Assembly: GCA_022450595.1 (NCBI GenBank)
Contig: JAKUPT010000014.1
Location: 1 to 56,410, forward strand
Length of the DNA stretch: 56,410 nucleotides
Source of the DNA: Bdellovibrionales bacterium
GTDB taxonomy: Bacteria; Bdellovibrionota; Bdellovibrionia; Bdellovibrionales; UBA1609
Reading direction: 5' to 3'
Part shown: positions 14,569-21,320 of the stretch, in pieces
Numbering within the stretch: position 1 is the first letter of the stretch
How the letters are laid out: each line of letters starts with the position of its first letter
The notes under the pieces: model-generated
What the model saw: the letters and a program-made list of their open reading frames with translations, nothing else
The model's database searches: none
What the model was told of the DNA's origin: nothing
Position numbers and translations under genes: made by a program

Positions 14569-14604
14569 AGTGCGCTCCTCGTTTAAAAATTTAAAAATCA
14601 AAAA

Positions 14605-15388: not shown

Positions 15389-15502
15389 TTACCCCTGTCT
15401 CTGTTTATGTTTAGGGTTATCACAAATTACACGAATAATGCCTTGTCTTTTAATCAGCTTGCAGTTTTTGCAAATTTTCTTTACTGATGGCCTTACTTTC
15501 AT
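15389..15502 (-). CDS. rpmJ: 50S ribosomal protein L36 (zinc-binding form)
   Basis: A 37-residue protein, [19 protein letters not shown] followed by an Ile/Arg stretch and [11 protein letters not shown]. The CxxC...C...H set shows the zinc-ribbon (C+) form of L36. It stabilises the 23S rRNA near the peptidyl transferase center. It sits between adk and rpsM, where infA often precedes it; infA is not present here. The 146 bases between it and adk are AT-rich with no gene and no clear terminator, and may hold a promoter. Confidence 0.97.
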
Positions 15503-15648
15503 TGCCTACCTCTTAAGTCCTAGTTTTTTAATTAAATATTTGATTTTATTTAACAAATATCAATAATAAACATATAATATACAAAGCGATCGCAAAAACT
15601 ACCATTTCATCCAAAAACTGTCCAGATAAAATGACAATATTATTACAA

Positions 15649-19679: not shown

Positions 19680-20069
19680 CTACCAAATTTTGCATAGAAG
19701 TTCGCCACCAACTTTTAAGTCAGTCGCTTGTTCACCACTTACAACACCTTTATTTGTACTTAAGATCGCAAGTCCATAACCAGATCTAACCTTAGGCACT
19801 TCATCTGACTTTACGTAAACTCGTTTTCCTGGACGGCTAATTCTTCTCATTGTTTTCAATGGAGAAGTGCCATCATTTAAGTACCTTAAATAAACACGCA
19901 TAACACCTTGTTTTCCGTCGGGAACCACTCTGTAGCTTTTAATATACCCATACTCTTCAAGAATTTGAGCAATCCCTTTACGAATATTAGAGCTAGGAAC
20001 ATCTAGTTTATCGTGCTTTGAAGCACTTGCGTTTCTGATTCGTGTTAAAAAATCTGCGATTGTATCCAT
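19680..20069 (-). CDS. rpsH: 30S ribosomal protein S8
   Basis: 16S rRNA-binding assembly protein, and the translational regulator of the spc operon in E. coli. The N-terminus MDTIADFLTRIRNAS and the C-terminal GYGLAILSTNKGVV are typical; 129 residues. It begins only 22 bases after the rplE stop, so rpsN (S14), the usual gene between, is absent. Confidence 0.98.
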   Translation of the reverse strand: MDTIADFLTRIRNASASKHDKLDVPSSNIRKGIAQILEEYGYIKSYRVVPDGKQGVMRVYLRYLNDGTSPLKTMRRISRPGKRVYVKSDEVPKVRSGYGLAILSTNKGVVSGEQATDLKVGGELLCKIW

Positions 20070-20091
20070 TAATCTACTCTCCTAAAACCAA

Positions 20092-20631
20092 TTATTTTTT
20101 GAAAGGTATACCTAGAGCTTCTAGTAAAGCTTTACCTTCAGCATCTGTATTTGCAGAAGTACAAATTGTGATATTCATACCTCTTACTTTGTCCACTTTA
20201 TCGTATTCAATTTCGGGAAATACTAACTGTTCTTTTAAGCCCATGTTGTAATTTCCGCGACCATCAAAACCCTTTGAAGGTAAACCTCTAAAGTCTCTTA
20301 CACTTGGAATTGAAAAGTGCACTAATCTTTCAAGGAAAGCCCACATTCTGTCTTTTCTCAAAGTCACCATAGAGCCAAGTGGCATTCCTTCTCTAAGCTT
20401 AAAGTTTGCAATAGCCTTTTTGGCTTTAGTAACCACAGCTTTTTGCCCAGAAATAGCGGTAAGCTCATCAGTAATTGTGTTAAGAATTTTTGGATTCTTA
20501 ACGGCTTCGCCTGTAGATACACTTAGTACAATCTTTTGTATTTTAGGCACTTGCATTGTGTTTTTCAGCTTTAAGTCTTTAATTAGCTGAGACACGATCT
20601 CTTGTTTGTATTTTTCTTCTAATAACGTCAC
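20092..20631 (-). CDS. rplE: 50S ribosomal protein L5
   Basis: Binds 5S rRNA and contacts the P-site tRNA. The sequence has [14 protein letters not shown], the P-loop region [16 protein letters not shown] and [17 protein letters not shown]. An ATG at 20637 is only one base after AGGAG, so the GTG at 20631, seven bases after it, is the likelier start (179 residues). It begins right after rplN; rplX (L24), normally between rplN and rplE, is missing. Confidence 0.97.
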
Positions 20632-20651
20632 GGCCATACTCCTAATGTTCT

Positions 20652-21020
20652 TTAAAGCACTTCAGGGGCTAAAGAAATAATTTTAATATACTTTTTTGCT
20701 CTTAGCTCCCTAGCGACAGGGCCAAAAATACGAGTTCCAATTGGTTCTTTGTTGTTGTTAATAAGCACAGCAGAGTTTTCATCAAAACGAATCATACTTC
20801 CATCTTGTCTGCGAAGCTTGTGAATAGTTCTCACAACAACAGCTTTTGCCACATCACCCTTTTTCACTTTAGAGTTAGGCAAAGCATCTTTTACCGATAC
20901 AACAATGACATCACCAATTGAAGCGGTTCTACGTTTAGATCCACCTAATACTTTGATGCACATTACTTCTTTTGCACCTGAGTTATCTGCGACTTTTAGT
21001 CGTGTTTGCATTTGAATCAT
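20652..21020 (-). CDS. rplN: 50S ribosomal protein L14
   Basis: Universal 122-residue large-subunit protein that forms an intersubunit bridge. [18 protein letters not shown] at the start and [11 protein letters not shown] near the end are diagnostic. It is the first gene of the spc segment, 12 bases after rpsQ. Confidence 0.98.
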
Positions 21021-21032
21021 AACTCTACACCT

Positions 21033-21308
21033 TTACTGCTTACCAGCTGTTTCCATAACTTCAGCCAACTTCCATCTCTTGGTTTTACTCATTGGCCTAA
21101 TTGAAAAAATCTTAACTTTATCACCTGTTTTAGCTTCATTCTTTTCATCATGAGCTTTAAAATATGATGAACGACGGATATACTTACCGTACTTAGTATG
21201 TTTCACCATGCGGTAGATTAGGACAGTGATAGTTTTATCCATTTTGTCACTAACTACTTTTCCAATAACTTCGTCTTTACGACCTCTTGTTTTTTCAGTC
21301 TTTTCCAT
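21033..21308 (-). CDS. rpsQ: 30S ribosomal protein S17
   Basis: 16S rRNA-binding protein with an OB fold. [16 protein letters not shown] and [20 protein letters not shown] fit S17. Three in-frame starts are clustered (TTG 21314, ATG 21311, ATG 21308); AGAGG is six bases from ATG 21308, which is chosen (91 residues). Confidence 0.97.
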
Positions 21309-21320
21309 CATCAACCTCTA

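Follow-up and report, generated by a model that had tools for sequence, protein, structure and literature searches.

The ribosomal protein gene rplX has left the spc operon and lies behind rpmB in an order of Bdellovibrionota

The gene for ribosomal protein L24 (uL24), rplX, left the spc operon in the ancestor of the order studied here and is now the second gene of an rpmB-rplX pair beside a divergent rpsR. The relocation is nearly certain. As its cause we propose, at a probability of roughly 0.6, that a cysteine-free (C-) paralogue of L24 became the sole L24, that the zinc-ribbon (C+) copy of the spc operon was lost, and that the C- copy was later shortened. These terms follow PMC10450194, the accessible part of which counts uL24 among the zinc-coordinating proteins of Thermus thermophilus and distinguishes C+ (CXXC-CXXC) from C- forms of it.

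The window, by which we mean the whole analysed stretch of 56,410 nucleotides, carries ORFs for the spc genes on the minus strand in the order S17 (rpsQ, 21033..21314), L14 (rplN, 20652..21020), L5 (rplE, 20092..20637), and S8 (rpsH, 19680..20069). The preliminary description had stated that rplX is missing between rplN and rplE, with only 14 bases between them. This was borne out by the ORF coordinates 20652 and 20637: the junction (20638..20651, minus strand) is 14 bp long and too small for L24, and no L24 was found among the ORFs of at least 50 aa listed there. When the window was compared with the canonical operon S17-L14-L24-L5-S14-S8, the order of S17, L14, L5, and S8 was kept, whereas L24 and S14 were missing. 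The L5-S8 junction (20070..20091, minus strand) is likewise devoid of rpsN (S14) in each of the 34 genomes that could be read in f1, the family of the window, whereas S14 was found between L5 and S8 in 17 of 22 genomes of the order's other families, as a 61-aa or a longer form. The S14 of the window genome, a protein of 101 aa without CxxC, is encoded on another contig.

Some further features of the window were observed. S11 and rpoA are only 3 bp apart (14602-14604), with no S4 (rpsD) between them; according to the accessible part of PMC3087516, B. bacteriovorus HD100 has two S4 genes, one C+ and one C-. From adk to rpsM, rpmJ stands alone, and no infA or map ORF was found in 15503-15648. Besides tRNAs, no Rfam element was found above threshold in the window or on the contig carrying L24.

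Subsequently, the junction was read across 58 genomes of the order, which we infer to be Bdellovibrionales. The L14 probe matched in 57 of them, and 56 were readable as far as L5, where matches were obtained at the same place as in the window; G027 stands outside this count because its contig ends there. L24 was found between L14 and L5 in none of the 56 readable genomes, the gap being shorter than 150 bp in 55 and 166 bp in G009. Since the junction is common to all 56, a deletion private to the window genome can be dismissed, as can an error of sequencing or assembly. The two doubts raised in the preliminary description, a deletion introduced by assembly or sequencing and an rplX present here in close relatives, therefore do not apply.

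The preliminary description had left it open whether rplX had moved or been lost and had proposed a search of the genome with an L24 model. That search was run on the 3.06-Mb genome and gave a single match (G000:C19:3054-3290; 52.4 bits, the curated cut-off being 53.7), which narrows the alternatives to a move: the one L24 gene lies on another contig, directly after rpmB. Indeed, loss of L24 from this genome is ruled out, one copy having been recovered by two profiles. The relocated ORF (L021:3033-3293, minus strand) encodes 86 aa and starts 2 bp past rpmB (L28; 3296-3595, minus strand). The divergent rpsR (S18) is 222 bp distant from the pair, and two genes follow on the 3' side of the pair, one for a carbon-nitrogen hydrolase and one for an RlmL-like methyltransferase.

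The same arrangement was observed throughout the order. A profile derived from the order recovered L24 in 53 of the 58 genomes, and at all 53 loci read, one of which is that of the window genome, rpmB immediately precedes rplX on the same strand, at a distance of at most 60 bp in 52 and of 67 bp in one. The rpsR gene is divergent at 51 of the 53 loci; in G008 and G013 no S18 was present in the stretch read. In each of the 15 order genomes tested, L28 and S18 gave a single match apiece. In G009, G017, G033, G037, and G051, no L24 was found with either the public model or the order-derived profile. A second, weak L24 match in G026 (25.9 bits) was not recognised as L24 by the probes and was left out of the counts. 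Outside the order, G189 and G248 gave no L24 match with TIGR01079, the one model used on them; G189, a single contig and 99% complete, may have truly lost L24 or may encode a very divergent one.

The 86-aa protein (G000:C19) is a shortened, non-standard uL24. It matched TIGR01079 with an E value of 3.7e-14 and 53.0 bits, just below the cut-off of 53.7, and the KOW domain PF00467 with 30.3 bits, above the cut-off of 22.3. PF17136, which covers the C-terminal part, did not match at E 0.001; the full-length C- L24 of genome G117 matches it with an E value of 4.6e-30. An AlphaFold2 model built with 20 of the order's sequences (mean pLDDT 79.2, pTM 0.59) kept the barrel, with residues 11-70 averaging pLDDT 82-91 and the Lys/Ala-rich tail about 50. 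When the model was searched with Foldseek, the best 50 rows were all ribosome entries, and the top entry, 9t4r_t (TM 0.69), is a uL24 chain according to phmmer. The matches to KOW and TIGR01079, the missing PF17136, and the ribosomal Foldseek rows together identify the protein as a shortened uL24, which is presumably part of the ribosome. The score just below the L24 cut-off and the absent PF17136 half could also be taken to mean that the gene on this contig is merely a KOW protein in a genome that has lost L24, or that the spc junction arose by an assembly deletion. We regard this as very improbable, since the same junction occurs in 56 of 56 genomes, the order-wide profile recovers the gene in 53 of 58, and the best structural matches are ribosome entries with a uL24 chain first.

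L14-L24-L5 is among the most stable gene orders in bacteria, in line with a scan of named genomes that we performed with the order's L24 and from which the best 80 of 544 confirmed loci were retained. Nine of these 80 loci, all Bdellovibrio-like records, showed S18 divergent from L28-L24. Seven, among them B. bacteriovorus strain kdesi, are titled Bdellovibrio, Bdellovibrionaceae, or Bdellovibrionales, and the other two bear the titles 'Oligoflexia bacterium' and 'Bdellovibrionota bacterium'; three of the nine are probably not independent of the order genomes already counted (L336 = G023, L337 = G034, L339 = G001). At the other 71 of the best 80 loci, which bear titles of other groups, L24 lies beside L14 and/or L5. 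In 68 of these 71, L14 was found upstream and L5 downstream within 450 bp, as expected if L24 is normally encoded at this place. The remaining three are two short contigs with one of L14 and L5, and one Akkermansiaceae MAG with L5 and an undetected L14. At three loci of Verrucomicrobia type (L349, L352, L372), an 86-aa L24 adjoins L5 in the spc slot, which is shortening without relocation.

The scan also bears on the idea that the rpmB-rplX unit was acquired horizontally, from a source beyond the phylum, and took the place of the native genes. The order's L24 does form a long branch in the phylum tree described below, and zinc-type ribosomal protein genes are known to move between lineages, as stated in the accessible part of PMC3087516. 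However, no donor was found, L24 lying beside rpmB at none of the 71 loci outside the group (among the best 80 of 544), and we consider such an acquisition improbable.

We then compared the forms of L24 with their locations outside the order. A total of 84 L24 copies were classified in 82 of 146 matching genomes, family f17 being thinly covered (14 genomes) and the weak L24 matches in G062 and G089 being left out. All 18 relocated copies were C-, their C-terminal part being free of cysteine; 17 adjoin genes for L28, S18, L31, L33, or S14, and one stands alone. Among the 66 spc copies, both CxxC pairs were present in 34, some cysteine in 18, and none in 14. The split was complete in family f16, where 10 of 10 relocated copies were C- and 18 of 18 spc copies C+ (Fisher p = 7.6e-8, a value uncorrected for relatedness and with G117 and G177 counted on both sides). 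Sixteen genomes have a relocated copy only; the L14-L5 interval was readable in 14 of these and held L24 in none, G139 and G167 being unreadable from L14 to L5 and G165 having a gap of 325 bp without an L24 match. The varied arrangements suggest that L24 was relocated more than once in the phylum. In two other genomes, G071 and G074, L28 adjoins S18 while L24 stays in the spc operon; an insertion of L24 into an existing cluster is thus possible. L14 was seen with in-frame stops or in pieces at L190 (G109), L179 (G195), and L189 (G207), owing to a frameshift, an assembly error, or another cause.

Two genomes, G117 and G177, carry both forms: a C+ L24 in the spc operon and a cysteine-free C- L24 in a separate cluster, part of an island of zinc-starvation type, the two being 50% identical in G117 and 37% in G177. 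Both genomes are drafts (130 and 170 contigs, respectively), and the G177 island, which makes up a single contig of 10.4 kb, may owe its place in that genome to misbinning. The clusters read L31-L24-L28 in G117 and L31-L33-L24-L28-S14 in G177. Further C+/C- pairs were found for L28 and L31 in both genomes, for S18 also in G117, and for S14 also in G177. A divergent Fur-family gene (PF01475) adjoins both clusters, and each island encodes a GTPase whose score (618 and 628 bits) exceeds the cut-off of 600 for the zinc metallochaperone ZigA. The G117 island also holds a TonB receptor and further cobW-family genes, and a second, weak L32-like gene was seen there (G117:C2:42689-42829, L247). The Fur-family regulator of the islands may be a Zur; the NCBIfam Zur model, whose cut-off is 167, did not recognise its genes as such (28-29 bits).

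An operator-like box, YGCAANNNNNTTGCR, was also observed in the two islands. Four exact copies were counted in 19 kb of G117, against 0.08 expected from first-order simulations, and two in 10.4 kb of G177, against 0.06 expected from simulations of the same kind. In each island one copy occupies the interval from L31 to the Fur-family gene; the others precede L33, a cobW-family gene, an ORF of unknown function, and ZigA. The box had been written from the L31/Fur, L33, and S18 regions, so that three of the six exact copies are independent (L414:1353, L414:8538, L416:8153); two of the independent copies precede a cobW-family gene and ZigA. When one mismatch was allowed, the excess was weaker, with six matches against 2.42 expected in G117 and five against 1.52 in G177, as many or more having arisen in 5 and 2 of 200 shuffles, respectively; two of the five in G177 fall inside a coding ORF. 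In 12 other stretches of these genomes, including both spc loci, no exact copy and four one-mismatch matches were found. With at most one mismatch, the box was found neither in the 51 S18|L28 regions of the order nor ahead of the L24 clusters in G136, G162, and G123.

The order's L24 resembles that of its relatives' clusters: it is C- and lies with L28 and S18, both of which are without CxxC in the window genome. L32 and L33 were also located in this genome. L31 was read in 12 of 13 order genomes, G039 having been missed by the filter; it is C- in the window genome, as in 8 of the 12, and of zinc type in the other 4. L36 (rpmJ, window 15389-15502) keeps its cysteines and is C+. A fully zinc-free ribosome is ruled out by this L36 together with the zinc-type L31 and 61-aa S14 of some order genomes. 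The zinc-type L31 and the 61-aa S14 kept in parts of the order also indicate that no whole cassette was swapped. In a tree of 86 L24 proteins (106 columns), the order stands on its own long branch outside the relocated copies, which form several groups. The free tree was 15.7 log units better than a tree in which the order and the cassette L24 share an origin; such a common origin is neither shown nor rejected (AU p = 0.236, for a group named after the tree had been seen).

Several of these results go against a takeover by a C- copy and fit a simpler history, in which there was no stage with a zinc-responsive paralogue and the spc rplX itself, or a copy of it, was transferred to a place where rpmB and rpsR already stood, the losses of the cysteines and of the C-terminal part being unrelated decay. 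The tree does not place the order with the cassette copies, the box is found in none of the 51 order regions, cysteines were also lost in place (14 of 66 spc copies), and L28-S18 clusters exist while L24 is still in the spc operon (G071, G074). However, this history leaves unexplained why relocated copies of several families (17 of 18) came to lie among genes for zinc-type ribosomal proteins, and why within one family the relocated copies are always C- and the spc copies C+ (in f16, 10 of 10 relocated and 18 of 18 spc copies); furthermore, a two-copy stage is visible in two genomes. We therefore consider it possible but less probable.

The paralogue route is probable. It is supported by the absence of L24 from the spc operon, the copy after rpmB, the order-wide arrangement, the division of C+ and C- forms by location in sister lineages, and the two genomes with two copies. 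Along this route, the gene would not have jumped as such. Rather, a C- L24 paralogue encoded with zinc-free L28 and S18 (in relatives also with L31, L33, and S14) would have become the only L24, and the zinc-ribbon (C+) L24 of the spc operon would have been lost. The order presumably passed through the same two-copy stage as G117 and G177. The simplest history would place the replacement of the spc gene by the C- paralogue before the diversification of the order; the C- L24 would then have lost its C-terminal part, so as to end in the Lys/Ala-rich tail. The order's rpmB-rplX is presumably always expressed, because no operator box of the zinc type was seen there. A more general reading is that uL24 is zinc-switchable: in relatives, a zinc-free uL24 controlled by zinc starvation would replace the zinc-ribbon uL24, and in the order the switch would have become permanent, thereby removing the gene from the spc operon and making the former zinc-ribbon half dispensable. 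We give this reading even odds.

Pairs of C+ and C- ribosomal proteins, with alternatives under the control of Zur, are described for S14, S18, L28, L31, L32, L33, and L36, and also for S4, in the accessible parts of PMC3087516 and PMC9976891. As in the case of L24, the C- paralogue lies in these systems with other C- genes, away from the ancestral operon, and some genomes keep both copies while others have the C- copy alone. The order differs from them in that its L24 is shortened, no C+ partner was found, and no operator-like box is present. L24 does not occur in the main text of PMC3087516, which treats eight zinc ribosomal proteins, nor in PMC3353972. The uL24 isoforms of PMC10450194 resemble the present case in that C+ and C- forms are recognised; in its accessible part, however, the isoforms are tied to growth temperature, and neither a C- uL24 paralogue in a zinc-type cluster nor an exit from the spc operon is described. 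In a literature search of partial coverage, we found no description of rplX relocation in Bdellovibrionales, of a zinc-controlled L24, or of a C- L24 in a zinc-type cluster.

Because L14-L24-L5 is so stable, its order-wide break is a useful marker, and one with a testable cause. If the proposed cause is true, uL24 would be added to the ribosomal proteins for which bacteria swap in zinc-free versions, and the 50S subunit of these organisms would work with a uL24 that is shortened and no longer produced together with the spc proteins.
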